Source: Qipengyuania sediminis (lineage in GTDB: Bacteria; Pseudomonadota; Alphaproteobacteria; Sphingomonadales; Sphingomonadaceae). From it: DNA of 64,000 nt. The stretch is taken from positions 1,860,001-1,924,000 of the forward strand of contig NZ_CP037948.1 of NCBI RefSeq assembly GCF_004358425.1, in the 5' to 3' direction. Made by a program: the position numbers and the translations under genes. The notes below the pieces were generated by a model. The model was not told the DNA's origin. It made no database searches and saw nothing but the letters and a program-made list of their open reading frames with translations. This document shows positions 46,736 to 64,000 of this stretch, piece by piece; within the stretch, counting starts at the first letter, position 1, and every line of letters starts with the position of its first letter.

Positions 46736-46847
46736 GCACCGGCAAATCCTATGATCGCGATGCTGCGGCGCTAGGGGTAAAGGCGTAGTTCGGGCGCAAG
46801 GTGAACGCGGCTTTAGCCATCCCGTCTTGAGCTTGGCGGGCGGCGCG

Positions 46848-46903: not shown

Positions 46904-47147
46904 TAAACTCTGAGATATCGTGTTGAAAATAAACGATAAATCAGGCCTTTCAAAAAGACTGTGTAAGAGAGTGTGTAAAAAACGACCTATTTTTTTGCAC
47001 CAATCGCCTGCGACCATATAAAGCGTAGCACTCGGATTTGTACGGCTCAACACGCTTGATGAGCTGTCTGCGCCTCATCTCATTCGGGAGGGGTTCCGGG
47101 GCTTGGGGCGGAAGAAGAAAGCCGCGCCTTTGACGCGGTTTCCCTCC
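46904..47147. other. Non-coding left end of the element
   Basis: About 240 bases without a gene. A near-direct repeat (tgtgtaagagagtgtgtaa at about 46961-46979) resembles integrase arm-type or core-flanking repeats near attachment sites. Nothing else is recognised. Confidence 0.45.
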
Positions 47148-47444: not shown

Positions 47445-47446
47445 GG

Positions 47447-47977: not shown

Positions 47978-48362
47978 GATTTTGCCCTCCTTCGGCAACG
48001 GGTTTCAGATGCGTTTCTGAAACCCTGCCTCGTGGCGAACAGCGGGGGGCAAGCGGAGTAAGTCCCTTCGCGGGGAACCGGCTGCACTGAGCGCAGCGTA
48101 GGAAGCTGGGCGGAAGGGACTTCGCAGCGCGCGAGGGGCAGAGCCCCAGCCTTCTGCGTCAGGGATCGTTACCCGAATGGGCGGAAACCGCCACACGGGT
48201 TCCGTCGCGCCAGCGATAGAGCGCGGCCCGCAGGGGATGCCCTGATAAGATTGAACTTTAGAATGCTCCCGTCGGCATAGTATGCTCTATCAGAACAATA
48301 CGAATCTTAGGCCTTTTCAGGCACCGACATTTAGACAGACAAGATTTCAGGGACGGGAATAA
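47978..48362. promoter_or_regulatory. Hairpin-rich region upstream of ardA
   Basis: No gene. Inverted repeats: GGTTTCAGA/TCTGAAACC at 48001-48009 and 48016-48024; AAGTCCCTTC/GAAGGGACTT at 48060-48069 and 48113-48122 enclosing GCTGC/GCAGC; nested ACCCG(..GGCGG/CCGCC..)CGGGT at about 48171-48201. They lie just upstream of ardA on its strand and may form a single-stranded-DNA promoter, as known for leading-region genes of conjugative plasmids (inference). The last 100 bases serve the DUF262 gene start (GGGACGGG before ATG). Confidence 0.45.
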
Positions 48363-50249: not shown

Positions 50250-50311
50250 GGGTTTGTTTTGCCCAATTTTGTCACCGCCTTACCAGTCAGTCATGCGGTG
50301 AAGCTACTTAA

Positions 50312-50323
50312 AGTCTGTAGACT
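50312..50323. promoter_or_regulatory. Possible controller-protein operator (AGTCT-AGACT)
   Basis: AGTCT at 50312-50316 and AGACT at 50319-50323 form a compact palindrome in the promoter region of the controller gene. Its GACT/AGTC half-sites resemble C-boxes bound by restriction-modification controller proteins. A related site precedes the methyltransferase gene. Confidence 0.4.
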
Positions 50324-50451
50324 GAAAGGCGTCTCAAATGGAATATGGTAGCCGTCATGCCTTGCGGTAGGGGGAAACTCTGGGGAAGCTTAGATCGCCG
50401 AGTAAAGAGCTAGTCGCTGTTCTTGCGAACAATGTTCGTCATCTAAGAAAG

Positions 50452-50637
50452 GTGAAGGGCATTTCGCAGGAGGAGCTTGCCGATCTTTGCGAAATTCATC
50501 GCACTTACATTGGTTCAGTCGAACGATGTGAGCGCAATGTTACCCTCAGCACCCTAGAACTACTTGCTAATGCCCTCGGCGTGTCAGTGACACAACTTTT
50601 GACGCCGATGATTGATGACACAAAACCCAAGTCCTGA
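50452..50637 (+). CDS. Controller-type HTH (XRE) regulator of R-M system
   Basis: From GTG 50452 this gives 61 residues containing the recognition part of an HTH_3 domain (ISQEELADLCEIHRTYIGSVERC, then LELLANALGVSVTQLL). The reading frame is open upstream to about 50371 and encodes the expected first helix (NNVRHLRKVKG), so the real start is probably farther up, perhaps CTG 50380 behind an AGGGGG site. It overlaps the restriction gene by 23 bases. Overlapping C and R genes are the rule for controlled type II systems, where the C protein delays nuclease expression after entry. Confidence 0.75.
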   Translation: MKGISQEELADLCEIHRTYIGSVERCERNVTLSTLELLANALGVSVTQLLTPMIDDTKPKS

Positions 50638-51682
50638 AACCTTTATCGCTGCAATCAAAGCCAGTGGGCTTTCGATCTATGATGAAATCCCGATAGGGCA
50701 CCCGACCCTATGGATTCCAACCACACAGCTTGAGCAGCTTTTGCAGGAAGGGTTGCAGGGAATTGCTTTGGAGGGGTTGCCACTACGCACACGATCAAAG
50801 GTCGTGAAGGAAAGCGTTTGCCGCGTACTAGGCTACCCGATCCCCAAATCATTCAAAAAAACACAGCCGCGCTTTCCAGGGCAATTTTTTGACATCTACA
50901 CCCAGAAATCGAACAACCTACAGATATGGAACGAGGAGCTTTCGCCTTCGCGTCGCTACGTGATTATCAGGGTTTCAGACGTGGATGAAATCACGCGGGT
51001 TAAGGTGGTGACAGGCGATATGCTCGCAATCTTGGACACCACGGGCACGCTGACCCAAAAATACCAAGCACGGTGCATCGTAGGCGAGCAGCAGGCCGAG
51101 CTTATCAGTGACACCGACACCGCCCAGCTCGCGCCGTTCGTGAAGCCTGGAATCGATTTAGCCAAGATCGGATCACCAGTTACACAGCCGCAGGTTGGCG
51201 GCTTGCTACCTGTTGCCGAGATTTTCGAGCGCCTTGTGCCATTACTCGGCGAGCAGTTTCCCGATGCGGGAGCCGACCAAGAGCGAAATCGCGGCGCAGC
51301 CTTGCATAGTTTGGTATGCAAGGCACTGGGATATGCCACTTATCAGGATGATGGCCAATTCCCAGACGTTCGCCACCAGCTCTTAGAGGTGAAGCTCCAA
51401 ACGTCACCGACGATCGACCTAGGCCTAGTTACGCCCGAAAGCAGAGAGCTGCTTGACGTGCCCATGCTTGACGGGGTTCAAGTCCGTCATTGCGACGTTC
51501 GATATGCGATTTTTTATGCCCAGATCGAAGGTGGCAACGTCACCTTGACCCATCTTTTTGTTTCACCTGGGGCAGACTTTTTCAAACGATTCCCGCAATT
51601 TCAAGGTAAAGTGCTGAACGCGAAATTGCAGATACCGTTACCGGCTAGGTTCTTCGCCCAGACCGAAGGCCTGCCAGACTAA
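50615..51682 (+). CDS. Type II restriction endonuclease (family unassigned)
   Basis: 355 residues, ATG 50615 within the controller gene. The N-terminal third has FFDIYTQKSNNLQIWNEE. The likely catalytic PD-(D/E)xK core is in the C-terminal third: PDVRHQLLEVKLQTSPTIDLG near residue 250, giving Asp...Glu-x-Lys. Its position between a controller gene and a convergent N6-adenine methyltransferase makes restriction activity very likely, though recognition sequence and fold subgroup cannot be told. Its last 45 bases overlap the methyltransferase gene. Base composition is lower in G+C than the chromosome. Confidence 0.75.
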   Translation: MTQNPSPETFIAAIKASGLSIYDEIPIGHPTLWIPTTQLEQLLQEGLQGIALEGLPLRTRSKVVKESVCRVLGYPIPKSFKKTQPRFPGQFFDIYTQKSNNLQIWNEELSPSRRYVIIRVSDVDEITRVKVVTGDMLAILDTTGTLTQKYQARCIVGEQQAELISDTDTAQLAPFVKPGIDLAKIGSPVTQPQVGGLLPVAEIFERLVPLLGEQFPDAGADQERNRGAALHSLVCKALGYATYQDDGQFPDVRHQLLEVKLQTSPTIDLGLVTPESRELLDVPMLDGVQVRHCDVRYAIFYAQIEGGNVTLTHLFVSPGADFFKRFPQFQGKVLNAKLQIPLPARFFAQTEGLPD

Positions 51683-53383
51683 CTTATCGAGTTCACGCTC
51701 CATGCCTTCGACGGTGGGCGCATGGTTCGCCTCATAAATCGCCTTTGCTTTGGCGATGATAGTTTGCGCTAATGGTGTCGCAGGATCAGGCAGCGGGAAT
51801 TGCTCAACGTATTGAGTGATGAAGCGGCGGCGTCCCGAGTAGAGCTTGTTATTGAAGCAATGATCGTAAAACGCTTCGATAAAGGTCGAATTGGCGACGG
51901 CTACTGCCAGCCAGAGCAATTCCGTCTCACGCTCGTCTGCGGCGATCATCCAATAGCAATCACCATTGACCACGCTGCCATCGAGATCGAGCCAAAATGT
52001 CGGCCGCTCCGAAATGTCACGAAAAACAAGCTTTGGGCACGACCAGGATGCAGGGTCTTGAGGCACCCAAATTTCATACCATTTCCGCCCGCCCTCGATA
52101 ACGTAAGTCCGCCCCTCTAGCGCCGCTCGATTGCCTTCAAGGTAAGCTCGACTCTTAGGGAATTGATCGAGGTCACTTGCTCGCCTTTGCCCGTCGATCA
52201 CAGCGTGCGGGTAGAGGATATGGCGCACCTTTTTTGGTGTTGTCGCCCGGTATCGCCCAGCGCCGTGGTGAGTCGTAAGAGGCCGCAGAAGCTCAGGCAT
52301 TGCGCCATTGGTTGCGGCTTCCCAATCATGACGGATGAAGATCTTGTCGGCGCAGGTTTTCACACCGACGCGGATCTTGCCAATTTGCCCGAACGTACGT
52401 GCCGTGTGTCGCTGCACGGTTGCCATCCATGCGTCACCCGTAGCCGTAGCAACGCGCCAGACAGCATCAGCCCCGCCAGAACTATCGAGCGTCCCAGACT
52501 TCACCAAAAAGCGCCGCCCGTCATCAACGGCAACAACTCCTTCCATGGACAGAGCCAGAATAGGGCTTGCCGCCGTCAAATCGCTTTGATCTCGTGTTTC
52601 ATAGATCGAGGTGAACGCCACGGCGGCATCGTCATTTTCTTCGCACTGCTTTCCGTTCGCTACGATTACAGCAGGCAGCACAGCGGCATTAAAAAGTTTT
52701 GTATCGCCCAAGTCCCAGACTTCCCGCAGGGCAAGCATCTGGCGCAGCTTTTCGCGCAAAGAACCGCCGCCCTTGATCGACATGAAACGATTGGAAACGA
52801 TGAACCCCGCAGCGCCTTTCGGCGCGAGGACCTTTGCCATCGCAAGCAGAAATGCCTGATAAAGATCGACCCTGCCAGTGAGGCCGAACGTAGCGGCTAG
52901 CCGTTGGGCTTCGTCCGCTCCCATAATTTGAGTGCGCACATAAGGGGGATTTGCGATTATCAAATCGAATGACGGCTTATCACGGTTGTTTTGCATTGAA
53001 AGCAAATCGGGCTCCCGATCTTCTTCAATAGAAAACTGCAAAAAATCTTTGTTTTCAAAATGTAGTATGCAATCTGGATGAATGCCTTCAATCCTAGATT
53101 TGGCCATCGCAAGAGCTAGGGAGTTTGTATCGAATGCATATAACTCGATATTTCCGCTATAATGAGTTCGAATCTCATTTAGCAATGAACATGATAATTC
53201 GCCATCGCCGACTGAGGGGTCGAGTATCTTTATCGTGTCTCGATCAGTAAAATCAAAATTTTCGCATATTTTTCGCGCGACGAAATCTGATAGCTCAGCA
53301 GGCGTGTAAGTTTCCCCATTGGCTTTGGTCATGGAAACATCTTGATAGCGCTTGACAGACTCATTGATCGCAGATTGGGACAT
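51638..53383 (-). CDS. N6-adenine DNA methyltransferase of type II R-M system
   Basis: 581 residues, gamma-class architecture like M.TaqI/Eco57I methylases. SAM-binding motif I is ILDPSVGDGELSCSLL, the catalytic NPPY motif is IIANPPYVRTQ near residue 146, and then FIVSNRFMSIKGGGSLR. The C-terminal half is a TaqI-like target-recognition domain (FRDISERPTFWLD, LPDP). It protects host DNA from the convergent endonuclease. AGGAG precedes ATG 53383, and a controller-box-like site lies 19 bases upstream of that. Confidence 0.88.
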   Translation of the reverse strand: MSQSAINESVKRYQDVSMTKANGETYTPAELSDFVARKICENFDFTDRDTIKILDPSVGDGELSCSLLNEIRTHYSGNIELYAFDTNSLALAMAKSRIEGIHPDCILHFENKDFLQFSIEEDREPDLLSMQNNRDKPSFDLIIANPPYVRTQIMGADEAQRLAATFGLTGRVDLYQAFLLAMAKVLAPKGAAGFIVSNRFMSIKGGGSLREKLRQMLALREVWDLGDTKLFNAAVLPAVIVANGKQCEENDDAAVAFTSIYETRDQSDLTAASPILALSMEGVVAVDDGRRFLVKSGTLDSSGGADAVWRVATATGDAWMATVQRHTARTFGQIGKIRVGVKTCADKIFIRHDWEAATNGAMPELLRPLTTHHGAGRYRATTPKKVRHILYPHAVIDGQRRASDLDQFPKSRAYLEGNRAALEGRTYVIEGGRKWYEIWVPQDPASWSCPKLVFRDISERPTFWLDLDGSVVNGDCYWMIAADERETELLWLAVAVANSTFIEAFYDHCFNNKLYSGRRRFITQYVEQFPLPDPATPLAQTIIAKAKAIYEANHAPTVEGMERELDKLVWQAFGLGEEPSR

Positions 53384-53401
53384 GAAAACTCCTGATTAAT
53401 C

Positions 53402-53412
53402 TACTCATAGTC
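53402..53412. promoter_or_regulatory. Controller-box-like site before the methyltransferase gene
   Basis: TACTCATAGTC at 53402-53412 differs at one base from the classic controller box consensus (GACTYATAGTC, from memory of the PvuII-type literature). It would put the methyltransferase promoter under the same controller protein as the nuclease. Confidence 0.45.
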
Positions 53413-53489
53413 ATCTATTTGAGCGAATGCGTCAAGAGGAAACCGTGGCCCGATGTTTACGTGGATTGCACAGCGATTTGCGGACAAAA

Positions 53490-53864
53490 CTAACCTAGAA
53501 ACGGGGGTTTGAGGAAGTGCCGCGCACGGAAACGTGCGCGCAAACGGCGCGCGGATCGCGGCCTTGGGCTGGGTCGCGGCGCCATCGGCGGAGCAAGGAA
53601 CATCGACCCTAAATCCGCCCCTTCCACGGCGTCGCCCGCCGTCGTGCCGGAGCTGCTGAAGAACCTCGAATTGGCCTCGCTGTGGCTTGCGCTGCCCTTG
53701 TCGTCGTCAGTTTTTTTAGTGGGTCGGGCAACCGCCATGAAGCGCGACACAAGGCTAGGCAGGATGGCTGCTGCCATGCTGCGCGCAAAACGCGATACCA
53801 AAGTGGCAGTTTGAGGCACAAGGCTGGCAATCTGCTTGAGAAGCAGGCCCGGTTCCGATTGCAA
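53490..53864 (-). CDS. Small hypothetical protein behind the relaxase gene
   Basis: A 124-residue frame (TTG start) 14 bases after the relaxase stop. The N-terminal half is helical and partly hydrophobic (LLKQIASLVPQTATLVSRFA, then SMAAAILPSLVSRFMAVARP). The C-terminal half is low-complexity Ser/Pro/Arg-rich and may be disordered. I recognise no family. Position and coding style make it plausible as the last mobilization-operon gene, but the start is weak. Confidence 0.4.
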   Translation of the reverse strand: MQSEPGLLLKQIASLVPQTATLVSRFARSMAAAILPSLVSRFMAVARPTKKTDDDKGSASHSEANSRFFSSSGTTAGDAVEGADLGSMFLAPPMAPRPSPRPRSARRLRARFRARHFLKPPFLG

Positions 53865-53878
53865 GAAGCGCGAGCCCG

Positions 53879-55327
53879 TCAGCGTGCGCGGTCATCGCGC
53901 TCCGGTCCCACGCGTTCACGGGCCAATGCCTCGATGCGGCGGCGCTCATATTCGCGCTCAAGCGCGACAGCCCGCTGATCATCGGCAATGCGGCGTTTCA
54001 AGTCTTTGTCCTGCTCGTCGAGCAAATCGGCGCGCTCTTGCCCCTGCCGCTTAACGAGGTTGTCGATCTCCTGCCGCTGGGCGGCCTGCATTCCACCGAC
54101 CATGATGCGGATTTCATCGGATCGGCGATCTTCGGCGTCGCGGGCATGCTGCGCCTCGATGGCGAGCCGCTGGGTCCGCGCCTCCTCATTTACGGCTTCG
54201 CGAATGCTGCGCCAGAGGCGGTCAAAACCGCCCGGAACTTGCGGACGCTCCGCAACAGTGCGTCGCGCCTGTTCCTTCGAGAAGGACTTGATAGCTTTGT
54301 CGGCGGCGGCTTGCTGGCTGGTCTGCAACTCCGTCACTTCGCGGGCGTGGCGTAGCTCCTGCTCTTTCAGCTCCGCGCTGTGGCGTTCCGATATAGCTTT
54401 GCGTAGTGTGTCGAGACGTTGGCGATCAGCCTCAGTGTCTATCGGGGCGGCGTCATTCTTATCCGGCGCGGGCGCTTCGGCTTGTGACTGTCCCGGTGAT
54501 GGCTCTGCTCGCGCATTTTCTCGCACGGCGGCGCGGGCCTCACTGACACTCGGCAGCATGTCGGGGTTGATGTCGGCCATGAAGGCGCAAAGGTCTTTGG
54601 CGGTCACGCCGGGAAGCTGACGGCCAAGGCTGTGAACTTTGGTGTCAGAGTCCAAGATCACGAAGTCGCGGCGGTCGCCGCGCGCCAGCACATAGCCCGC
54701 ATCTTCAAGCGCAGCTTTGAAGGCTGGGCCGGTATCGCTGGCCTCGTATAGCCCCTTCACCTGCGCCTTTCGGTCGCGGTGGTTCATGCCGCCGCGCTCG
54801 CCCTGTTGCCATTCGTCGTGTTGGGCTTCGGCGGAGGGGAACTCGGGCTGGGCCTGCCGATCACGCTTGGCGTGTTTGCCGGGCACATGCTCGTGCCCGA
54901 ACTCCTGCTCAAGGCGCAGGCTGGCCCGTTCGTGGGCTTGATAATTCATGCTATCGGAGCGGAGCTTCATGGTGTCCATGTCGGTGCGCGCCCAGACCAC
55001 ATGGATGTGCTCCCGTCCGTTCTTTTCATGCATGACGATGGCGCGGGGCTGGCCTTGCAGGCCAAGCTCCTCTTCCAAAACCTCGACCGCCCGCAACCAT
55101 TGGTCGCGGGTCATGGCGTATTTGGCGTCCGGGTCGATGTTGGCGTGATAGAGGCCGAGCCTGCCTTTGGTGCCCTCGGAGATCACCTGCCAGTCGCGGA
55201 AGGCTTCCTGCACGGAATTGCCGCCCCACGCCAATTCGAGAAGCTCGACGCGCTCGTTGGTGTCGGCGCGGCCAAGGTGACGGGCGAGCTGGCTAGGGCC
55301 AGCCCGGCTCTTTCCCTTGATGATCAC
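53879..55327 (-). CDS. Relaxase / mobilization nuclease
   Basis: 482 residues from GTG 55327, preceded by AAGGAG. The N-terminal domain (residues 1-170) has ARHLGRADTNERVELLELAW and the metal-binding HIHVVWARTD (near residue 108) of MobP-type relaxases, which nick at oriT and pilot the strand. The catalytic Tyr cannot be pinpointed. A DUF3363-free middle region and a long charged coiled-coil tail (from about 290, e.g. ERHSAELKEQELRHAREVTE) follow. It overlaps mobC by 35 bases and is on the same strand as the coupling protein gene, all three reading leftwards. Confidence 0.85.
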   Translation of the reverse strand: MIIKGKSRAGPSQLARHLGRADTNERVELLELAWGGNSVQEAFRDWQVISEGTKGRLGLYHANIDPDAKYAMTRDQWLRAVEVLEEELGLQGQPRAIVMHEKNGREHIHVVWARTDMDTMKLRSDSMNYQAHERASLRLEQEFGHEHVPGKHAKRDRQAQPEFPSAEAQHDEWQQGERGGMNHRDRKAQVKGLYEASDTGPAFKAALEDAGYVLARGDRRDFVILDSDTKVHSLGRQLPGVTAKDLCAFMADINPDMLPSVSEARAAVRENARAEPSPGQSQAEAPAPDKNDAAPIDTEADRQRLDTLRKAISERHSAELKEQELRHAREVTELQTSQQAAADKAIKSFSKEQARRTVAERPQVPGGFDRLWRSIREAVNEEARTQRLAIEAQHARDAEDRRSDEIRIMVGGMQAAQRQEIDNLVKRQGQERADLLDEQDKDLKRRIADDQRAVALEREYERRRIEALARERVGPERDDRAR

Positions 55328-55685
55328 CGGCTGGCTCCTTGCCGAGGGCTTCAAAGATTGCGTCGCGTGCTTGCAGGAGGGCGCGGGCTGCGTCGCGCAG
55401 CTCGGGCACTTCGGGCACCTCACCCATGTTCATGCCACGGGCTAGCTGGTTGAGGTTATTGCCGACCCTGCCAAGGTCGGCGAGGACGCGGCGCAACATG
55501 ACATGATCTGCGGGTGGCAGGCGGCGGGCACGAAGGCCGGGGTCGCCTAGTAATGCGGCACGAGCGAAGGCGGCGCGGGTATATCCCGCGCGGTCGGCTT
55601 TGGCCGCAAGGATGCCCAGTTCTTCGGTCGTCAAGCGAACAAGGAGCTGGGCTGTCCTCTGCCGCTTGTCACTTCCTGTCGCCAC
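55293..55685 (-). CDS. mobC: MobC-like relaxosome accessory protein
   Basis: 130 residues from GTG 55685, behind GGGAGGGCG. RTAQLLVRLTTEELGILAAKADRAG at the start is a ribbon-helix-helix-like DNA-binding segment. Further on, LRRVLADLGRVGNNLNQLARGMN is the MobC family signature (GxNxNQLAR). MobC proteins bind oriT and help the relaxase nick. The gene overlaps the relaxase start, so both are cotranslated. Confidence 0.85.
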   Translation of the reverse strand: MATGSDKRQRTAQLLVRLTTEELGILAAKADRAGYTRAAFARAALLGDPGLRARRLPPADHVMLRRVLADLGRVGNNLNQLARGMNMGEVPEVPELRDAARALLQARDAIFEALGKEPAGDHQGKEPGWP

Positions 55686-55708
55686 CCGCCCTCCCGTAAT
55701 GAAGGGTT

Positions 55709-56069
55709 CCAAGGCACCGCCTTGGTCGGTTGCAGGCGCGAAATGCCTGCCGGGGGGCCGGGGTTCGCAATCCCCGGTCTGGTTTCCAAAGGGCACGAAG
55801 GCTCTTTGGTTGTGGCCGCTGCAATCAGCGGTCATGGGTTTCCAAGGGAGAATGAAATCTCTCTTGGCGGGATAACGAACAAACGCGGGGGGCGCGTATG
55901 TTCGTTATCCCGGTCCAGGGTGCAGGGGCGGGAAGGCTCTGCTCTGGGGGTCCAACGGGGGGCACGAAGGCTCCCCTTGGTCTGGGGATGCAACGGGGAT
56001 GAAATAACCCCTTGCCAAGCCGCGCGGATAAGCGCGCATGGCTTGCATCTCCTGTTATTATCATAACAG
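55709..56069. repeat. Block of 12 consecutive hairpins, candidate oriT region
   Basis: Inverted repeats in order: CCAAGGC/GCCTTGG (55709-55725), GCAGGC/GCCTGC (55732-55750), CCGGGG/CCCCGG (55758-55777), CCAAAGGGC/GCTCTTTGG (55786-55809), CCGCTG/CAGCGG (55816-55831), CCAAGGGAGA/TCTCTCTTGG (55842-55867). Then the large GGATAACGAACA/TGTTCGTTATCC (55870-55910), CCAG/CTGG (55915-55947), CCAACGGGG/CCCCTTGG (55952-55980), GCAACGGGG/CCCCTTGC (55990-56015), CAAGCC/GGCTTG (56016-56045), and CTGTTAT/ATAACAG (56052-56069). The loops ACGAAG (55795-55800, 55964-55969) and ATGAAA (55852-55857, 55999-56004) recur. Confidence 0.75.
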
Positions 56070-58726
56070 AGGACTTCGCAGAAATCGTTAACAAAGTTAA
56101 CAGGCTGCGTCATTTGGCTAAAGTAGCACTTTAGCTGAGTCGCTATGGCGACGTCTATTTTCTTCTTTCCGCGCAACAGGTCGCGGGCTTGGTTGAGCTT
56201 TTGGGCAAGGTAGTTGGTGCCGCCGCGATCAGGATGAAGCATTCCCATCAGCCGCTTGAGTGCCTCGTTCACCTGATCGTCGGTCGCGCCCTCTTCCAAC
56301 CCGAGCATGGCCAGTGCTTCGGCCCGATCCATCGCGCCCGATGTCTTTGCGGCCTGTTCCTGCTCGCGCCGCGCCTGATCGTAAAAAGGGTTAAGATCGA
56401 AAGCATCAAGGTCGGGCAGCTTCACTTGGGCTTTCGCCTGTTCCAGACGCGGCGATAGGTAAACCGACAGGTGCCAGTAATCGACCGGCTTGAGGTAATG
56501 GGCACGTCCGCGCGGCTGGAAGGCAAAGGCTGTGCCCTTGCCCATCGACATGATCTCGTCGGGAAAGAGGAGTGCGCGCCCTGTCTCGCCAAGGGTGCGG
56601 CCAGTCGAGCCATCGGCTCCGCTGATGGTCTGGCTGACCGTCTGAACCGTCATTTGGCCAAGTGCCTTGCTGACGTATTCTGCGGTTTGCAGGTCTTTGA
56701 CGTTGCAGAACCACTTGTAGCCGCAGTTGCTGATGATGGTATCGGCGGATGTGCCGTAGAGGGCGCGTATCTGATCCAACCCCTGCACGATCAGGGTCAG
56801 GTCAAGACCCGATCCCCCGACGAGGGCGATGTCGGTGACGATGCTTTCTACCCGCCCCAGCACGGGAAACTCGTCGATCATCAACATGCCGCGCACCCCT
56901 TGCGCGGCTGGCCGATGGCGCTTGAAGGTCTGGGTCACGGCTTTGACCATGAGCTTAAGCCAGATGGCCTGTGCCTGCATCTGGTCGTCGGGAATGACGA
57001 TGTAGAGGGTGGTTCGCCCGTTCACCAAGTCAGCCAGATTAAAGCTGGAATGGTCGGTCGCGGTCGTGATCTGGTCGTCGGCGAGGAATTGCAGGGATTT
57101 TGAAAGCTGGGCAATTACGCCGCTATAGGTCTTGTCGTCCATTTGAACGAAGCGCCCGACCAACTTGCGCATAGCGCCGCGATAGGATGAACTTGCGACC
57201 ATGCGGGGGAACAGGGTTTTGCGCAGGTCGTCAGCCTTTTCGCCCCCGCTGACAATATCGGCTACATGCCCCAATGTTTTAGTTTCGCCGGGGGCGTCTG
57301 TCACCCACAGCATAATTCCCGCCAGCATGGCGGTGGCATTGTCCTGCCAGAAGCTGTCATTGACGCTGCCCTGATGGCAGACGGTAACGGCAAGGCTGTT
57401 GGCGATACCGACGATGTTAGGGTCTTTGGGATCGAGAACATCGAGCGGATTAAAAGTGGCGCGGCCAAAGCCGTAGTCCTGAAACAGCGAGCCGTGGACA
57501 CTCCACGGGTTAAGAATATGGACCGTATGCCCGAGCTGGTCGCGCCGGTAGCGCGCTGTGATCGCGGCATTCTCGCCCTTGGGGTCGATGGTGAACAGCG
57601 AGCTTTTATAGAGCAACAGCGTTGGCAGGATAACGCGCGTGCCCTTGCCCGTGCGCGATGGCGCGACAACCAGCGTATGCGATTCCGGCGATGACAGAAC
57701 GGGGCCGAAATAGGCCTTGGGGAAGATCGTATGCGCCGATGCCCCGAGGAACACGCCTTTGAAGAGGCCGTCATCGATGGTCGATGAAATCGGCGCATAA
57801 TCGGCGGTGCCGTAGGTGCCGCTGGTGCCGGACTCTCCTCCTTTGGAGCCGACCAGTTTCATCAAAAACCCCACCATGAGGATGAGGCCAAAGATAACGA
57901 TCAGCACAACCGCCGGGCCGATTGACGAGCTATTGCCTGCCGCCTGTTGCTCTCGTGCTTCGCGTTGCTCGCGAAGCTGGGCTTGATATTCTTTGTGGCC
58001 TGCGCGGCTGCCGCCAACCCCTGTGGAATCCACGAAGCGTTCGCGGAAACCCTCTGGGAAATAGAGCGCGGCTGTTTCTTCTGCGCGCGCAAGGTCGTGT
58101 TGGTATGAGCCGCGCGCGCTGTTGTATTCCTGCGCACGGGTGCGGCACCAGAACTGCCAGCGCGGGCATGTATCGGTGAAAGTCGGTTCAATCCGGGCGC
58201 GGATATCGTGGAAGTGCAACCAATAAAGGCGGATGCGTTGATGAACGTCGGCAGGCCAACGGCTCTCAGGGATATTGCCCTGCAATCCTTCGAGCGAGCT
58301 GCCCAGCATGGCCATGCGACCAGCTTGGCGGCCTGCCAGTTCTGCATCGTCGATGCCGGGAGAGCTGGCGGCAAGGTCAGCACGCACGCGCTGTGGTTCT
58401 GGGTAGCTTCGCAGATAGTCGGTGCGCGGCGTCGCACGGATCGTGCGGCTGGCAATCCGCTCTGCCTCCTGCCGTATGGCGCGGCCCTGTCCTGATCGGT
58501 CGGCGAGTGCGTAGTTTTCAGCAAGCCGTTGGCGCGCAAGGGCGAGCGTTTCTTGTGCGAAGTCGTCGGGCACATCGGCGCGCGCACGTTCGCGCTCGAT
58601 CAGTGCGATGTTGGTGAGCGAGTAGGTAATCACGCGCGTGATCTGGGCACGGTCTTGGGCGTGGCTGGCAGCGGGCCAGGCAAGGCAAAACGCGATCAAC
58701 AGCCAAAGACGAACGATGCGATTCAA
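55832..58726 (-). CDS. Type IV coupling protein (VirD4/TraG-like) with C-terminal J domain
   Basis: 964 residues from TTG 58726 (AGGA five bases upstream). A signal peptide (MNRIVRLWLLIAFCLAWPAA), a long periplasmic region, a membrane segment near 250-270, and the TraG ATPase follow. Walker A is VAPSRTGKGTRVILPTLL near 359 and Walker B GMLMIDEFPVLGRV near 613. Residues 805-857 form a J-domain (EEGATDDQVNEALKRLM, MLHPDRGG). An extra 107 residues run on through the hairpin block; removing one A at about 56155 would end the protein just after the J domain. It links the relaxosome to a helper secretion channel. Confidence 0.87.
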   Translation of the reverse strand: MNRIVRLWLLIAFCLAWPAASHAQDRAQITRVITYSLTNIALIERERARADVPDDFAQETLALARQRLAENYALADRSGQGRAIRQEAERIASRTIRATPRTDYLRSYPEPQRVRADLAASSPGIDDAELAGRQAGRMAMLGSSLEGLQGNIPESRWPADVHQRIRLYWLHFHDIRARIEPTFTDTCPRWQFWCRTRAQEYNSARGSYQHDLARAEETAALYFPEGFRERFVDSTGVGGSRAGHKEYQAQLREQREAREQQAAGNSSSIGPAVVLIVIFGLILMVGFLMKLVGSKGGESGTSGTYGTADYAPISSTIDDGLFKGVFLGASAHTIFPKAYFGPVLSSPESHTLVVAPSRTGKGTRVILPTLLLYKSSLFTIDPKGENAAITARYRRDQLGHTVHILNPWSVHGSLFQDYGFGRATFNPLDVLDPKDPNIVGIANSLAVTVCHQGSVNDSFWQDNATAMLAGIMLWVTDAPGETKTLGHVADIVSGGEKADDLRKTLFPRMVASSSYRGAMRKLVGRFVQMDDKTYSGVIAQLSKSLQFLADDQITTATDHSSFNLADLVNGRTTLYIVIPDDQMQAQAIWLKLMVKAVTQTFKRHRPAAQGVRGMLMIDEFPVLGRVESIVTDIALVGGSGLDLTLIVQGLDQIRALYGTSADTIISNCGYKWFCNVKDLQTAEYVSKALGQMTVQTVSQTISGADGSTGRTLGETGRALLFPDEIMSMGKGTAFAFQPRGRAHYLKPVDYWHLSVYLSPRLEQAKAQVKLPDLDAFDLNPFYDQARREQEQAAKTSGAMDRAEALAMLGLEEGATDDQVNEALKRLMGMLHPDRGGTNYLAQKLNQARDLLRGKKKIDVAIATQLKCYFSQMTQPVNFVNDFCEVLCYDNNRRCKPCALIRAAWQGVISSPLHPQTKGSLRAPRWTPRAEPSRPCTLDRDNEHTRPPRLFVIPPREISFSLGNP

Positions 58727-58744
58727 GCAGTTCCTAACGCACAA

Positions 58745-59011
58745 GATTCATGCGTCCTTTTCAGCGTCATTTCTGTGTTTGTTCAAGCAATTCTGTTGCG
58801 GGGTAAATGTGCGGCACGGTTTCTCCCGTCGCCGACGCCATGCGAGGCCTTCTTGATGGGCATCCTTGCGGGGGTTCGCCCTTCGGGCCGCAAGCCACTT
58901 CGCGGCTTCTTCACTGCGTTACGACCAAAGGTGCGGCCAGTGCGAACGCCCCGCTTTCTGTCTGCCATGAAGGCCCGCGATGGTCGCGGCTCAAGACAGG
59001 GAGAAAAAGCC
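58745..59011. other. Non-coding, hairpin-bearing stretch upstream of a small gene
   Basis: No gene. CTTGCGG/CCGCAAG near 58867-58896 with inner GCCC/GGGC forms a strong hairpin. It sits between the divergently read coupling-protein gene and the next plus-strand gene, in the promoter area of both. Confidence 0.45.
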
Positions 59012-59218
59012 ATGTCGCAATTTATCACCCCCGCTGAACTTGTTGGCATGAACGAACAGGAACTCCGCGCTCTCTACGGTCGCCTGCTGAGCGATCTGCG
59101 CCGCAACCCGCAGTCTCGCTTCTTGGCCTCTGACGTTCACGTTTCGCTCCGCCACGTCGAGCAAGCTCTGGCCCGCCTCGCGCAACGCCCTCGTCCCCCA
59201 CAGGGACCGCGCTTCTAG
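59012..59218 (+). CDS. Small conserved hypothetical protein
   Basis: 68 residues, MSQFITPAELVGMNEQELRA, with a helical core and a Pro-rich end (LARLAQRPRPPQGPRF). GGGAG lies 10 bases upstream of ATG 59012. It is the only plus-strand gene in the mobilization block. No family name is recognised; the size and place suggest a plasmid-type accessory protein. Confidence 0.6.
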   Translation: MSQFITPAELVGMNEQELRALYGRLLSDLRRNPQSRFLASDVHVSLRHVEQALARLAQRPRPPQGPRF

Positions 59219-59267
59219 CGCCAGCGCGAAGCCAGCGCCGCCGACGTCGCCGGCGGCGCTGGCTTGG

Positions 59268-59606
59268 TCAGTATTCACTGGCCAGCATGATAGTCAGCAC
59301 GCGAGTGGTCTGGGCAGGATCGGCCGGACACTCGGAGCCATAGCGGCAATCGCGGTCATAGTAGTCGATCTTCCAGAAAACCTTGCGGCCATCGACGGTG
59401 ACGCAACCGAAGTCGTGCTCACCGTAGGGATCGTTGTCTGCGGAAAAGTCGCTGAACCGTTGCACCGCTTCTACGCAGCCGCTCGTGAAATCCTGACCGA
59501 GAGCAGTGATGCCCTCGGTAATCAGGACGCGCCCGCCGATGAAGCAAGTCCGGAACAGGTCGTTCAGCGCGCGGATGCGGGATGCTGTTTGCAAAGGCGC
59601 GTTCAT
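59268..59606 (-). CDS. DUF3768 domain protein
   Basis: 112 residues fitting DUF3768: ALNDLFRTCFIGGRVLITEG at the start, then FSDFSADNDPYGEHDFGCVT, VFWKIDYYDRDCRYGSECPAD, and a C-terminal RVLTIMLASEY. The family is common on alphaproteobacterial plasmids and islands; function is unknown. ATG 59606 overlaps the upstream gene's stop as ATGA, and GGGAGG lies 7 bases before the start. Confidence 0.82.
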   Translation of the reverse strand: MNAPLQTASRIRALNDLFRTCFIGGRVLITEGITALGQDFTSGCVEAVQRFSDFSADNDPYGEHDFGCVTVDGRKVFWKIDYYDRDCRYGSECPADPAQTTRVLTIMLASEY

Positions 59607-59821
59607 ACCAGACCTCCCTGCGCCGCATCGCGGTCGGCCTTGGGGACAAAGGCGCGGGCAACCAGACGACCCTGCAACGGAATTGCATTGCAGCGCATAT
59701 TGAACCCCTTGCCGTCTTGGTGCAGCCACGCAGCCCCGATGCGGGTCCAGCGGGCATCCTTGCCGTCACCTTCCACGCACCAGAGCATGAAAGCGGGTGA
59801 GTTTTGATCGACGTTCGCCAT
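59603..59821 (-). CDS. Small hypothetical protein in operon with DUF3768
   Basis: 72 residues (MANVDQNSPAFMLWCVEGDG, then GRLVARAFVPKADRD) behind a strong AAGGAG site 8 bases upstream of ATG 59821. The stop overlaps the DUF3768 start. The pattern (short beta-strand protein with KDARWTRIGAAW) is frequent in sphingomonad mobile DNA, but I can name no function. Confidence 0.65.
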   Translation of the reverse strand: MANVDQNSPAFMLWCVEGDGKDARWTRIGAAWLHQDGKGFNMRCNAIPLQGRLVARAFVPKADRDAAQGGLV

Positions 59822-60191
59822 TGTAATTCTCCTTGTGATTGGAGGTGCGCAGACCATCTGCGGCCTCATGGGGAGAAGGCGGCGCGGCCCATCAAGCCAG
59901 TGGTCAACGCCGGGCGAAGCCCGCCCGAAGGTGCAAGCTGCACAAGCCGGTAGCGAAGCGAGAGGCGCGGAAGCGCAGGCGATTGACGACTGGCGGGGTT
60001 GTGCCAGAAGCGACCCATAAAGAGGCCGTAATGGCCTGAACGTGCCTCCCCTCGTCCTCAAGGAGTGCAAGGCGATCCGTCGAAAACGCACGACACCGCT
60101 TCCCAGTGCGTGGCGGATCTTATCGGCTAAAGGGATTCCCGCCCGAAATCGCGAGCGGCTGCTTTTCAGGTAGCTGGAGGGATGGCGCTGC
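59822..60191. other. Intergenic region, 370 bases, with hairpins
   Basis: No convincing gene. Small inverted repeats CGGGC/GCCCG (about 59912-59924) and AGGCC/GGCCT (about 60022-60036) are present. It holds the promoter of the small hypothetical/DUF3768 pair at its left and the fic stop at its right. Confidence 0.45.
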
Positions 60192-61301
60192 CTAGGCGAG
60201 CCTGTCGGGTGCAAGGGCATAGCTGGTGCTGCGCCCGCCCCCCGGCTCTTTGACCAAAATGGCGCGCTGGACGAGATCGGTGATGTCGCGCAGCGCAGTA
60301 TCGGGCGACGTTTTGGCGATGGTCGCCCATTTGGCGTTGGTTAGTTTGCCATCGAAGCCGTCAAGTAGACGGTTGAGGAGCTTGCGCTGGCGATCATTGA
60401 GTGGCTGGCCTGCGACGGAATCCCAGAACCGCGCCTTGCGCATGACGCTCGCGAGGATGATTTCGGCACCGTCGAAAGCACGATCAAGACAGCCGATGAA
60501 CCAGAGCAGCCAGGGCGTGATGTCAACGTCGCCCTTCTGCGTGGATTCCAGCATGTCGTAATAGGCGTTGCGCTCGGCCCTGATCTGCGCGGACATACTG
60601 TAGAACCGCTGTGCCGTGCCTTCCGCGCGCGCCAGCGCAAGATCGGCAATGGCGCGGGCAATACGGCCATTGCCATCGTCAAATGGGTGGATGGTAACAA
60701 ACCACAGGTGCGCGACACCGGCTTTCAGGACGGGGTCGGGCTGGGCAGTTTCAAACCATGTGAGGAACTTCCCCATTTCAGCGTCAAGCCGGTCGGCTTC
60801 GGGTGCTTCGTAGTGGACGCGCTCGCGGCCAATCGGCCCTGATACCACCTGCATCGGGCCATCATCACCGGTGCGCCAAGCGCCCACGGTGATCTTACTC
60901 ATGCCGCTGCGCCCTGTTGGAAACAGGGCTGCGTGCCAGTCATGCAACCGCTCGGCGGTCAGCGGCGCGGCGTAGTTCTGCGTGGCGTCGAGCATCATTT
61001 CGACAACGCCCTCGACGTTGCGATCTGCTGGAACCAGACCGCCAATATCCATGCCAAGGCGTCGGGCGATAGACGAGCGAACCTGATCGCGGTCCAGCAC
61101 TTCGCCTTCGATATCGCTCGATTTGATGACATCCTCGGTGAGGGCTTGCAGCACGGCTTCTTCGCGCAGCGGAAAGCCGAGGGCTTCCATGTGCCCGATC
61201 AATCGCCCTTGGCGGTGGCGCACGGCGGCAAGCGGCTGGGCAAGCTGCTCGTCGCTCCAACGCAGGTTTGGCCAATCGGCTCGTTCATGGATGTAGGTCA
61301 T
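60192..61301 (-). CDS. Fic family protein with N-terminal DUF4172
   Basis: 369 residues. DUF4172 (YIHERADWPNLRWSDEQLAQ) at residues 1-70, the autoinhibitory SSDIEGE motif at about residues 60-66 (S/TxxxEG, which blocks ATP), and the catalytic Fic loop HPFDDGNGRIAR near residue 204. C-terminal winged-helix part (LLNRLLDGFDGKLTNAKW) follows. All catalytic residues are intact, so it should AMPylate or otherwise modify a target, normally held inactive by its own helix. ATG 61301 sits inside the operator-like array, giving a very short leader. Found alone, without a separate antitoxin gene. Confidence 0.87.
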   Translation of the reverse strand: MTYIHERADWPNLRWSDEQLAQPLAAVRHRQGRLIGHMEALGFPLREEAVLQALTEDVIKSSDIEGEVLDRDQVRSSIARRLGMDIGGLVPADRNVEGVVEMMLDATQNYAAPLTAERLHDWHAALFPTGRSGMSKITVGAWRTGDDGPMQVVSGPIGRERVHYEAPEADRLDAEMGKFLTWFETAQPDPVLKAGVAHLWFVTIHPFDDGNGRIARAIADLALARAEGTAQRFYSMSAQIRAERNAYYDMLESTQKGDVDITPWLLWFIGCLDRAFDGAEIILASVMRKARFWDSVAGQPLNDRQRKLLNRLLDGFDGKLTNAKWATIAKTSPDTALRDITDLVQRAILVKEPGGGRSTSYALAPDRLA

Positions 61302-61401
61302 AATCACCGCACCTTCTGCGGCGATTATAGCCCGTATTCACCGCAAAATGCAAGGATATTCGCCGCATCTAATGCGGTGAATAAGCCCCTTAATCACCGC
61401 A
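61301..61401. promoter_or_regulatory. Operator-like array of ATTCACCGCA half-sites, 56-base period
   Basis: Six copies of an 11-base half-site (consensus TAWTCRCCGCA). Forward copies start at 61301, 61335, 61357 and 61391; reverse copies start at 61317 and 61373. The set 61301/61317/61335 repeats exactly as 61357/61373/61391, i.e. a 56-base period, with forward-reverse pairs 16 bases apart and the third site 34 bases from the first. It overlaps the fic start codon, suggesting tight autoregulation or a regulator binding site. Confidence 0.65.
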
Positions 61402-61599
61402 TATGTATGTCGGAATTAGTGCTACGGCGCTCAAGCCATTGACCCCCATGCGTAATTTTCGATCCATTTGAGACGAATCCGCGTTGCGTGAGACAATAAG
61501 AGCAAAGAAACCTCTCGCGGAAAATATGAGGATGAATGCTACGTGGTTCGTTTGGCGACACAGCTTTTGTAGACAAGAGAAGGACGATCGAGGGCGTAC
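61402..61599. other. Intergenic region between fic operators and unknown gene
   Basis: About 200 A+T-richer bases. A possible GAGGGCG ribosome site lies just before the next gene. I see no RNA or gene. Confidence 0.4.
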
Positions 61600-61860
61600 T
61601 TGCAGATTTTTAGCGGCCCACATACGCGCATGGACTGGCCATTCTACTTCTGCACCCTTCGTCTCGACAATGGCGAGCACGTCCAAACGTCGATCCGTGA
61701 TTGGGATGGAGGCCTGATGATCGGCCAACGCGTTCGCGGCCACATGCTTCCCAAGGGAATATTCACAGGCCACGAGCATATCGACGCACTCGAGCGCGTC
61801 GGACCACCATCTGCGTTCAAGCGATTACAGGCCGCTATTGCGCAAAAGTTCGGGCGTTGA
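61600..61860 (+). CDS. Hypothetical protein
   Basis: 86 residues from TTG 61600 (GAGG 7 bases upstream); ATG 61630 is an alternative. LRLDNGEHVQTSIRDWDGGL and GQRVRGHMLPKGIFTGHEHI look like a compact beta-rich domain, with a helical end (SAFKRLQAAIAQKFG). No family recognised. It precedes another unknown gene by 24 bases and may be in its operon. Confidence 0.5.
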   Translation: MQIFSGPHTRMDWPFYFCTLRLDNGEHVQTSIRDWDGGLMIGQRVRGHMLPKGIFTGHEHIDALERVGPPSAFKRLQAAIAQKFGR

Positions 61861-61884
61861 AAACAGAGGGCAGTTGGTGTGCGG

Positions 61885-62235
61885 ATGGATCAATGGATTC
61901 CCGCTACAGACTTCATCGCTGCTGATGTCGTCCGTTGGACGGAAGGCATCTATGATCGCAGAAAGCGTGGCAAAGCTCTGCGTATTGGCGAGCGCCTGGT
62001 CGCCGCCGAGGTTATCGAGCGTGGCAAGGATGGCTGGGTCAAATTACTGGTGCGAGCATGCACAATCACCAAAGATGAGTTTGCAGGAAAGTCTATTCTT
62101 CCGTTGAAAGCGGGTGAGCAAGTGAGACGCGGGGAAAGGACGATCCTGCGTGGGAAGGTTGAACGGTTGAAATGGAATGATGAGGGTGCCCGTGCGATGG
62201 TGCTTAGCAGTTTCGCTAAGTCACGCTTTACATAG
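61885..62235 (+). CDS. Hypothetical protein
   Basis: 116 residues from ATG 61885 (GTG 61879 also possible), behind AGAGGG. Strand-rich basic protein: DVVRWTEGIYDRRKRGKALR, then RLVAAEVIERGKDGWVKLLV and QVRRGERTILRGKVERLKW, the pattern of an SH3-like or small beta-barrel domain. I cannot assign it to a family. It is lower in G+C than the chromosome and follows the previous unknown gene closely. Confidence 0.55.
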   Translation: MDQWIPATDFIAADVVRWTEGIYDRRKRGKALRIGERLVAAEVIERGKDGWVKLLVRACTITKDEFAGKSILPLKAGEQVRRGERTILRGKVERLKWNDEGARAMVLSSFAKSRFT

Positions 62236-62369
62236 CGAGCTGAGTTTATGCATTATGAGACAAAAATGCGTTCTAAAAGAGATTGTAAGGGGTTAAGCTG
62301 CTTCTGTGACTCTTTCAAAAAAATATCCTTCATATAGGTAGGTTTGCCGGACGATTTTCTGGACAAAAA

Positions 62370-63152
62370 ATGTTTATATCAGATCAACGCATTATTGTTG
62401 GCACTAAAACCCTATTCGCCCGACGTTGGCAGCCCATCTCATCGTCATCAAACGCTCCCGTAATTCTACTCTTTCACGAGTCTCTCGGTTGCGTAGAATT
62501 ATGGCGCAGCTTTCCTAAAAAACTTGCAATCGCCACAGGACTGTCGGTCATAGCCTATGATCGCCTCGGATTTGGGCGTTCTGACGCACATGAGAGCAAG
62601 CTTCCGCTCGACTTTGTAGCTGATGAAGCAAAACGTCATATTCCACTGATACAGAGCCATATAGGGTTTTCGAATTTTATTGCTTGCGGTCATAGTATTG
62701 GCGGTGCGATGGCCTTGGAAGCTGCGGCTCACTTCCGCGACAGGTGCGACGCAGTCATCACGCTCGGGGCGCAGGCCTTCGTCGAAGAACAAACGATTGT
62801 TGGACTTAAATTAGCAAAAAAGACGTTTAGCGACTATTCCAACATATCCCGTTTGGAAAAATATCACGGTGATAAGGCCGAATGGGTCGTTAATGCATGG
62901 CTCGACACTTGGCTTGATCCAGCATTCGCTGAATGGACGCTAGATAAGGCGATCAGCTTGGCCTGTTGCCCTGTACTGGCTATACATGGCGAGCGCGATG
63001 AATATGGATCTTGCGAACACCCTCGACGCATCGCAGGTCATAAAGGCGAACTGGCGTTATTGCCGAATGTCGGTCACGTCCCCCATCGAGAGAATGGAGA
63101 AGTAGTCATTGAGCTCGTGACACGATTCTTAGATCGGTATTCGAATGTATAG
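62370..63152 (+). CDS. Alpha/beta hydrolase
   Basis: 260 residues. Nucleophile elbow FIACGHSIGGAMALEAA (Ser about residue 111), oxyanion region LLFHESLGCVELWRSF, Asp in AIHGERDEYGSC, and His in LPNVGHVPHREN complete the triad. No signal peptide. The YDRLGFGRSD segment near residue 65 is typical of HADH/epoxide-hydrolase-like fold-superfamily members; substrate unknown. Its codon use is distinctly A+T-rich compared with the rest of the window, supporting recent acquisition. Confidence 0.82.
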   Translation: MFISDQRIIVGTKTLFARRWQPISSSSNAPVILLFHESLGCVELWRSFPKKLAIATGLSVIAYDRLGFGRSDAHESKLPLDFVADEAKRHIPLIQSHIGFSNFIACGHSIGGAMALEAAAHFRDRCDAVITLGAQAFVEEQTIVGLKLAKKTFSDYSNISRLEKYHGDKAEWVVNAWLDTWLDPAFAEWTLDKAISLACCPVLAIHGERDEYGSCEHPRRIAGHKGELALLPNVGHVPHRENGEVVIELVTRFLDRYSNV

Positions 63153-63193
63153 TAAGGAACTCTCTCAGCCGGTAGAGACACCATGCGATGGCC

Positions 63194-63246
63194 ACTCCCC
63201 TTCGGGAGTTTAAGAGGCCAACGGCCCTGCCTGTTCAGGCTGGGCC
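63194..63246. repeat. Two hairpins after the alpha/beta hydrolase gene
   Basis: ACTCCC/GGGAGT with loop cttc (63194-63209), and GGCCCTGCCTG/CAGGCTGGGCC with a two-base loop and one mismatch (63223-63246), close behind the hydrolase stop. They may terminate that transcript or form part of the element end; a strong T run is lacking. Confidence 0.45.
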
Positions 63247-63340
63247 TTCGCTAAAAAGGGCAGCCGCCGGTATCGGCGATCTGCCTCATCGCGCACCGTT
63301 CGGTGCTCATCACTAATTCCATTCGTTGTCTAGCGGAACT

Positions 63341-63523
63341 CTAGACCGAACCTTGAAAGAAGCATTTTCGCGCCGTTAGCGCTCTGTGCGAGCCTTTTTT
63401 ATAAAGCAACATACCTGTGATGCCGTGCTGCTCGGTGTTGATCCTGCTTTTATCGAGAAGTAATTCCAGGGAGTTCTCCGACAGTAATGTCTTACTCGTG
63501 CTAGCGTATGCGATAAGATGCAT
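63341..63523 (-). pseudogene. Truncated BLUF-domain gene
   Basis: Minus strand from ATG 63523: MHLIAYASTSKTLLSENSLE, then SRINTEQHGITGMLLYKKG, which is the N-terminal half of a BLUF blue-light sensor (the first-strand Tyr and the ITGxLLY strand are recognisable). The family continues with FxQxLEG; here it switches to unrelated ALTARKCFFQGSV and stops after 60 residues. It lacks the flavin-contact strands, so it is a broken copy, probably cut by an integration or deletion event. Confidence 0.65.
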
Positions 63524-63575
63524 GTGAGCCTCACATCGCACCCTGGGGTGCTTCTATTAAGTCGGTTTTTCGAGG

Positions 63576-63890
63576 TGGTGCGGACGGGGGGACTTGAACC
63601 CCCAAGGGCAAAGCCCGACGGATTTTCTTACCTGCTACGGTTTTCACCGCCACTCGGTTGCCCGAGTGTTTGTGGTCTGGACTATCCCTTCACCGTGCCA
63701 CGGCAAGCCGTGGGTTAGGTGCTGCCCGTCTAGTCTCTACACCTTCCGAGGCGCTTTCGCGTCAAGGCTTGGCTCGGGATTGCCAGTTGAAAGGTTTCCC
63801 CGAATTTGAGCAGTTCTGCACCGCAGGTTTCCCTGCGAGCACTCAAGATTGGCCTAAGTCCGTTGCGTCTACCGATTTCGCCACGTCCGC
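63576..63890 (-). tRNA. tRNA-Leu (anticodon TAA) interrupted by a group I intron
   Basis: Exon 1 is 63890-63856 (35 bases, acceptor GCGGACG to ACTT), exon 2 is 63626-63576 (AAAATCCG to ACCA, with encoded CCA). Joined, the anticodon arm is ACGGA-CTTAAAA-TCCGT with anticodon TAA, the T arm GGGGG-TTCAAGT-CCCCC and acceptor CGTCCGC pair correctly, giving an 86-base tRNA with a long variable arm. The insertion lies between U34 and A35, the exact site used by cyanobacterial and plastid tRNA-Leu(UAA) introns. Confidence 0.93.
63627..63855 (-). ncRNA. Group I intron (IC3-like) in tRNA-Leu(UAA)
   Basis: 229 bases, from A after the exon-1 U to a terminal G (omega-G). Conserved core pieces are readable on the minus strand: GGGGAAACC (P5-like), ACTGGCAATCCCGAGCCAA (P4/J), and GTGTAGAGACTAGACGGGCA, which closely matches the P7/P3 core of the cyanobacterial tRNA-Leu intron. 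GGGATAGTCC follows near the 3' end. No homing endonuclease is encoded, so it should self-splice or need host help. Such introns are rare outside cyanobacteria, though others occur in alphaproteobacterial tRNA-Arg. Confidence 0.9.
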
Positions 63891-63958
63891 ATAGCCAGAT
63901 TCCAGTTTAGGCGGTTCGTTTGAATATGCCAAGGAAAACAAGATTAAGGGGGTGGCCG

Positions 63959-64000
63959 CTAGCGCGAACCCCGTCCTTTGGGGGTTGCGGGGCTGCGCCC
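63959..64000 (-). CDS. Possible C-terminal end of a gene (cut by window edge)
   Basis: Reading inward from the window edge on the minus strand, 13 codons (GRSPATPKGRGSR) run to a TAG at 63961-63959, about 70 bases before the tRNA gene. It may be the tail of a gene lying outside the window. Basic, Pro-rich tails of this kind are common in ribosome-associated or RNA-modifying proteins, but no identification is possible. Confidence 0.2.
   Translation of the reverse strand, partial: GRSPATPKGRGSR

Follow-up and report, generated by a model that had tools for sequence, protein, structure and literature searches.

A group I intron in the replacement tRNA-Leu(UAA) gene of an integrative element, and its probable role as a shield against the element's integrase

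The tRNA-Leu(UAA) intron of cyanobacteria is inserted between U34 and A35, and a tRNA-Leu(UAA) intron was reportedly described in a gammaproteobacterium in 2002. In a stretch of DNA from Qipengyuania sediminis (64,000 nucleotides, positions 1,860,001 to 1,924,000 of contig NZ_CP037948.1, hereafter the window), a reading made from the sequence alone had recognised such an intron in an apparently alphaproteobacterial tRNA-Leu(UAA) gene and had ascribed the likeness to shared descent, either very old or by transfer. The questions raised by this locus are to whom the gene belongs, and what an intron in the anticodon loop might do for its owner.

An intron-bearing tRNA-Leu(UAA) gene carried by an integrative element

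That this tRNA-Leu(UAA) gene holds a group I intron is confirmed, but the gene is not an old resident. The covariance-model search that had been proposed as a check on the intron, run over the window with RF00028, gives a match of 48.4 bits (E 2.7e-11 to 2.9e-11) at 63661-63865 on the minus strand, which covers the whole model (positions 1-253) and is far above chance. A default RF00028 scan misses the gene because this score is just under the gathering score of 50. ARAGORN also misses it by default and, with introns allowed, returns tRNA-Leu(taa) with i(36,229), in agreement with the 229-base insert after U34 that had been read from the exons (on the minus strand, 35 nt at 63890-63856 for the 5' exon and 51 nt at 63626-63576 for the 3' exon). 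The intron ends in G, and no sense-strand ORF of 60 aa or more was found inside it. The promoter-like site listed in Table 1 ends 14 bases upstream of the gene; one such site was found, against 0.2 expected in shuffles.

We aligned 28 intron genes, namely that of the window, 25 from related elements, one from a plasmid and one hit from a sample of the class. All 28 keep a U.G pair at their 5' splice site. A structure of 84 pairs, comprising the cloverleaf and the intron helices, is paired in 97.7% of cells of this alignment, and two-sided change is seen at 34 of the 84 pairs, where shuffles give 18.9, figures that lean in the structure's favour because the structure was derived from the same alignment. 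A terminal G was likewise found in 28/28 element genes with parsable ends, from 36 scanned, a set to which the window gene does not belong.

The gene lies in an integrative element of 18,460 bp from core to core, with a GC content of 57.1% compared with 67.5% in positions 1-46000 of the window (Table 1). The element sits in the native tRNA-Leu(UAA) gene, which has no intron, and breaks it within the anticodon loop; the two halves flank the element, the 5' half lying on the attR side outside the window at genome positions 1925378-1925333. The core common to both halves, GGGACTTAAAA, forms part of the anticodon stem and loop. On the evidence of this arrangement in the sequence, the intron gene can be placed with confidence as cargo of the element, set beside the integrase and replacing the split native gene, and not as a resident host gene. 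In a classical island a fragment of attP restores the target tRNA, and here the native halves remain split. At the level of genes the element has the site-specific integrase, att repeats and relaxase of an integrative mobilizable element. The integrase reading frame is broken after residue 54, while it is uninterrupted in a 99%-identical relative (L199); since the frame is interrupted in this genome, the element may be fixed here. A Pfam scan of the element took in 11 proteins, the integrase included.

Table 1. Features of the element and its surroundings (window positions unless marked as genome positions)
Feature	Position	Strand	Basis
Integrative element	46892..64000, on to genome 1925351 (1,351 bp past window end)	.	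att cores, GC
3' half of split native tRNA-Leu(UAA) gene (attL side)	46847..46902	-	shared core at 46892-46902
Tyrosine integrase gene, 3' end	63959..64000, on to about genome 1925214 (L164:1214)	-	
Intron-bearing replacement tRNA-Leu(UAA) gene	63576..63890	-	RF00028; ARAGORN with introns; same gene in related elements
Group I intron, 229 nt, at anticodon U34/A35 junction	63627..63855	-	
Sigma-70-like promoter candidate, upstream of replacement tRNA gene	63904..63932	-	consensus match only
ArdA antirestriction protein	47447..47998	-	Pfam PF07275, E 2.5e-43
GmrSD-N domain protein	48363..50249	+	Pfam PF03235, E 7.2e-28
Small helix-turn-helix regulator	50452..50637	+	Pfam PF01381, E 2e-12
Type II restriction enzyme	50612..51682	+	PADLOC PDLC03565, E 4.7e-147; Pfam: no match
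Type II DNA methyltransferase	51638..53383	-	PADLOC PDLC03226, E 6.6e-192; Pfam Eco57I
Relaxase (MobA/VirD2-like)	53879..55423	-	Pfam PF03432, E 1.1e-13
NikA/MobC-like mobilization protein	55293..55835	-	Pfam PF21983, E 1.5e-14
VirD4/TraG-type coupling protein	55832..58744	-	Pfam PF02534, E 4.8e-67
Fic-domain protein	60192..61307	-	Pfam PF02661/PF13776
Alpha/beta hydrolase	62370..63152	+	Pfam PF00561
PilZ-domain gene, flanking chromosome	46058..46735	-	Pfam PF07238

The native locus in congeners has no intron. The intronless pattern of tRNA-Leu(UAA) is matched in 58 of 59 congeners, every one of the 29 congener copies inspected is uninterrupted, and these copies are flanked by a relative of the same HU/IHF-type gene at 29/29 loci and by a PilZ relative at 25/29. 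An RF00028 search with stricter filters was negative in 36 congeners, as it was in 24 further genomes of the order. Because the intron gene is cargo of the element and the native gene of the congeners is intronless, transfer is shown for this genus.

Among 44 tRNA-model hits in this genome (G000) there is no other intact Leu(UAA), while Leu genes with GAG, TAG, CAA and CAG anticodons are present; as far as the assembled sequence goes, the intron gene is the sole intact gene of its kind. A search for 16S rRNA in the same genome found none, and some stretches may therefore be absent, making a second copy of tRNA-Leu(UAA) possible. UUA codons are rare in chromosomal genes, with one each in two of the five counted; of five element genes counted, three have them (4, 1 and 4).

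Targets, replacements and attachment cores in the integrase family

The order contributes 28 loci with an integrase relative, spread over 24 of the 396 genomes searched. In named genomes a relative is encoded by at least 381 candidate stretches; the best 80 of these were kept and span Alphaproteobacteria, Gammaproteobacteria, Acidobacteriota, Planctomycetota and others. Dozens of elements in Alphaproteobacteria, Gammaproteobacteria and Acidobacteriota share one layout of split host tRNA-Leu, integrase and complete tRNA-Leu. The 5' half of the host gene, broken in the anticodon loop, comes first, the integrase starts mostly 140-200 bases past the start of that half, and the complete tRNA-Leu follows mostly 50-190 bases beyond the integrase. 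In the rows from Planctomycetota the complete tRNA-Leu was seen and the split target was not.

A quick integrase tree was built from 102 of the 108 loci (28 of the order and 80 named). It leaves out the window's own locus (L198, interrupted frame), L199 and L301 (identical rows), L213 and L218 (where the ORF taken was another gene) and L221 (doubtful ORF), and it includes both L200 and L284, which are from the same species. Match coordinates in genome G381 equal those in G815, the genome of L284 (Sphingomonas echinoides ATCC 14820), and the two count as one species; the genome studied here belongs to the same family, as befits the alphaproteobacterial host that had been claimed. By class, the 102 loci comprise 37 with a UAA intron gene or UAA target, 2 that are UAA without an intron, 32 with an intronless CAA replacement, 10 with a CAA target for which no replacement was found, 17 'classic' loci with a non-Leu tRNA upstream (seen in 15 of the 17, L216 and L225 being placed by clade only) and 4 that are unclear. 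In three loci (L268, L277 and L294) the sequence ends before enough of the replacement gene is reached.

In the 'classic' set, complete Met, Lys, Arg, Phe or Asn tRNA genes adjoin the integrase in L210-L212, L214, L217, L219 and L220, the non-Leu tRNA of L220 reaching the end of the locus, and the same siting is seen in L222-L224, L273, L288, L303, L325 and L334. Family members at complete non-Leu tRNA genes fit a strategy of restoring the target, as expected.

Where both target and replacement could be seen, target type and intron agree in 59 of 59 rows, with 31 UAA targets accompanied by an intron and 28 CAA targets by none; among the 31 are L276 and L297, counted as intron-bearing with contigs that stop within the intron, and L318 and L320, which were assigned by ARAGORN or BLAST. 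These isoacceptor calls rest on the exon junction GACTT..AAAAT, because ARAGORN labels some intron genes Phe or Ser. The target changes 11 times on the integrase tree, and independent contrasts on its starred branches agree in 8 of 8 cases (sign test p 0.0078). The link between UAA and intron could partly be inheritance, and the eight contrasts therefore test the swapping of modules as well as need.

The attachment cores bear on what that need might be. The core of UAA targets is GACTTAAAA in 33 of 34, the remaining one having GATTT, and the replacement gene is without an uninterrupted core because the intron sits between GACTT and AAAA. For CAA the usual core, GACTC, is kept in 1 of 32 replacements, compared with 78 of the 101 places of Leu(CAA) type in the class (Fisher 1.4e-14), a test that ignores kinship and sets replacements, some from other phyla, against an alphaproteobacterial comparison set. 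That set consists of pattern matches, 101 places in 100 of 142 genomes (42 have no match), and some of these places may be copies carried by elements. The two intronless UAA replacements, L272 and L316, have the changed core GCACTTAAAATGC; their split targets were not found. The closest pairs of target and replacement are the most informative. In two UAA loci (L315 and L276) the 5' exon is the same as the host half, and therefore only the intron differs within the 5' half compared, while in two CAA loci (L282 and L333) the 5' halves of target and replacement differ only at base 32, which lies in the core. The core change is not universal, since L204 and L280 (2 of 28 CAA pairs) keep the same core in target and replacement, and a test in which core pairs were shuffled gave P 0.07.

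Rows with no replacement in the available sequence make up 10 of the 38 with a CAA target, and there are none among the UAA-target rows with enough sequence. UUG can be read by the UAA tRNA, and UUA has no other reader. It is for this reason that the confinement of replacement-free rows to CAA targets fits. The CAA-target elements for which no replacement tRNA was found are L293, L299, L309, L310, L311, L313, L322, L323, L326 and L330, a set from Acidobacteriota and Phenylobacterium.

We then asked of 27 element genomes (those of 24 of the 36 named UAA-class loci together with G000, G381 and G425, with G381 and G815 again one species) whether they hold a split native gene, seeking an uninterrupted stretch from anticodon to T arm. 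A 3' half without a complete 5' half of tRNA-Leu(UAA) was found in 17 of the 27, and 7 of the 27 gave no match to the anticodon-to-T-arm pattern. An apparently intact intronless Leu(UAA) is present in 4 of the 27 (G806, G810, G814 and G822), all MAGs, and G814 has a 3' half besides. Congener controls were intact in 5 of 5. Lone 3' halves were also found in two of 4 further element genomes tested from the class sample. One candidate that the script called intact (G821) was rejected by eye, for it is without an acceptor and the 5' strand of the D arm.

Two genomes carry a pair of 3' halves on one contig (G819:C90 at 7198 and 29624; G818:C4 at 358379 and 358507), a configuration that suggests tandem or repeated insertion at the split site. 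At another locus, L321, the split CAA target resembles the replacement tRNA of a different element, with a CACTC core and a 5' half like those of L285 and L296, which suggests that one element inserted into the replacement gene left by another.

Intron genes without the integrase

A tRNA-Leu(UAA) intron is less exceptional in the class than had been supposed. RF00028 matches occur in 31 of 385 genomes of the class sample and, judged by exon junctions, at least 15 of the 385 have a Leu(UAA) intron, the window included. This count leaves out L229 as plastid-like and L239 as ambiguous; L226, L228 and L251 are unclassified, and four further RF00028 matches are without a locus. Five of the 15 intron genes have a family integrase adjacent and 10 have none within their 1.5-kb flanks; in the genomes of these 10, the pattern search found no intronless gene or 3' half. 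Such integrase-free genes may be what is left of decayed elements, or they may be residents of longer standing. The intron tree, in which 5 of 44 inner branches are starred, mixes integrase-adjacent with integrase-free genes but is weakly supported; the intron of the window is 95% identical to that of another element (L256).

The plastid-like gene L229, in an alphaproteobacterial assembly (G503), adjoins tRNA-Cys and sits on a branch of 6.46 in this intron tree, in which no named cyanobacterial sequence was included; it is possibly contamination.

Similar genes also occur on other replicons. The window intron gene has matches in 1281 plasmid records, and in 1264 of these the match spans 80% or more of the gene. 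A conjugative plasmid of Bradyrhizobium sp. ISRA443 (L165) has an intron-bearing tRNA-Leu(UAA) gene at 6007-6296, and next to it an annotated hypothetical protein contains a stretch of 36 residues like the integrase family. Two further plasmids (L166, pCTX-M3, at 5001-5299, and L167 at 5001-5302) have, close to aac(3)-IId, a gene resembling tRNA-Leu(UAA) that contains a group I-type intron, shares ∼72% identity with the gene of the window and has no feature of its own among the annotations listed. In viral sequence there is a partial match in a 735-kb uncultured phage (LR756501, L363), weaker matches in Agrobacterium phage Atu_ph07 and Gordonia phage Daredevil, and at least 120 stretches in a pattern scan of viral contigs.

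What the intron may do

The reading we prefer, and consider probable, is that this is the replacement tRNA of an integrative element that targets a tRNA gene and also has mobilization genes, and that its intron shields the gene from the element's integrase. The intron gene would be transcribed, would self-splice and would supply a tRNA that reads UUA. Sitting in the middle of the attachment core (GACTT/AAAA), the intron would leave the replacement gene no DNA target, and the mature tRNA would be unchanged despite it. Where tRNA-Leu(CAA) is the gene split by a member of the same integrase family, base changes in the core would mostly serve the same end. To judge from the cores compared above, shielding of the replacement gene from the integrase, by intron or by core base changes, is likely. 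Because the native gene is split, losing the replacement would cost the cell its UUA tRNA, and the host would therefore be tied to the element.

The most serious competitor accepts the replacement tRNA and denies the intron a shielding role, proposing that one ancestral intron-bearing tRNA-Leu(UAA) was captured once and has since been exchanged. The intron is at the same site in 34 of the 36 readable UAA replacements (L272 and L316 being without it), the weakly resolved intron tree is compatible with one origin, and the shuffling of core pairs gives only P 0.07, all of which such a history would accommodate. It does not, however, predict the changed core in L272 and L316 or the avoidance of GACTC (1/32 against 78/101), and in L315 and L276 the intron is still kept with a 5' exon identical to that of the host. 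We therefore take a single capture with no further role for the intron to be possible but rather unlikely. An account in which the intron and the anticodon-arm changes guard the element's tRNA from tRNA-cutting nucleases of defence systems or toxins, not from the integrase, we find very improbable. It would have a precedent in anticodon-loop mutations that reportedly protect phage tRNAs (van den Berg 2023, as cited in PMC11476347), but the changed bases coincide with the DNA core common to attL and attR, and the intron could not protect the mature tRNA because the anticodon loop would be unchanged after splicing (CUUAAAA). Hardly credible at all is an old, vertical intron held in common with cyanobacteria, beside which an island inserted by chance: the tRNA and insertion point are identical, the core motifs are similar, and 10 of the sampled intron genes of the class are without a family integrase in their 1.5-kb flanks, their genomes showing no intronless copy by the pattern used, but the native gene of this genus is intronless and stands at the empty site, here it is split with the intron gene inside the element, and the intron is 95% identical to that of another element. 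Contradicted at this locus, the resident reading could still hold for some of the integrase-free intron genes.

The shielded replacement that we favour has partial parallels. With the cyanobacterial and plastid tRNA-Leu(UAA) introns ours has in common the tRNA, the U34/A35 insertion, a group I fold by covariance model and the want of a sense ORF of 60 aa or more inside, as seen here; unlike them, it is carried by an integrative element beside an integrase and replaces a split host gene. A tyrosine integrase, an anticodon-loop core and flanking att repeats are shared with the islands, ICEs and IMEs of tRNA genes, and a relaxase and coupling protein with mobilizable elements. Islands in tRNA genes are described as restoring the target with a fragment of attP (the Islander rule, in the parts of PMC4383910 and PMC8371274 that treat it), whereas in the present case no restoration is seen, and the split target is replaced by an entire foreign gene.

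The idea of a replacement tRNA is not new, since two S. meliloti prophages have been reported to inactivate tRNA-Leu(UAG) and to carry a replacement (PMC11476347). As in our element, insertion is in the middle of a tRNA-Leu gene and the replacement tRNA-Leu is element-borne; the isoacceptor is another, and the portion of that paper dealing with these prophages mentions no intron. In archaea, split and intron-bearing tRNA genes have been proposed to resist integration (Randau and Soll, as summarised in passages of PMC4390854 and PMC4033280), and an intron-bearing attP has been described (Sugahara 2012, as summarised in a passage of PMC8371274). According to these passages an interruption protects against integrating elements or travels with them, much as we propose, but ours is a bacterial case, with a group I intron inside the replacement gene that the element itself carries. 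Searches of one open-access library brought up no title or abstract describing a bacterial element family whose replacement gene holds such an intron.

Such elements, with hosts tied to them, would explain the scattered Leu(UAA) introns of proteobacteria as gains and remnants. A much wider proposal is that self-splicing introns of tRNA-Leu(UAA) arose or spread in bacteria as the shield of a split-and-replace strategy, with the integrase-free genes, possibly including the ancient trnL intron of cyanobacteria and plastids, as domesticated remnants of the elements concerned; this we regard as improbable. The layout itself breaks the restore-the-target rule on which island-finding programs rely, and makes the proposed role of tRNA introns as a guard against integration testable in a bacterium. 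Shielding would give tRNA introns of puzzling scatter and persistence a function, namely protection from integrase at the level of DNA, and it would give them a vehicle in integrative elements found in several phyla.
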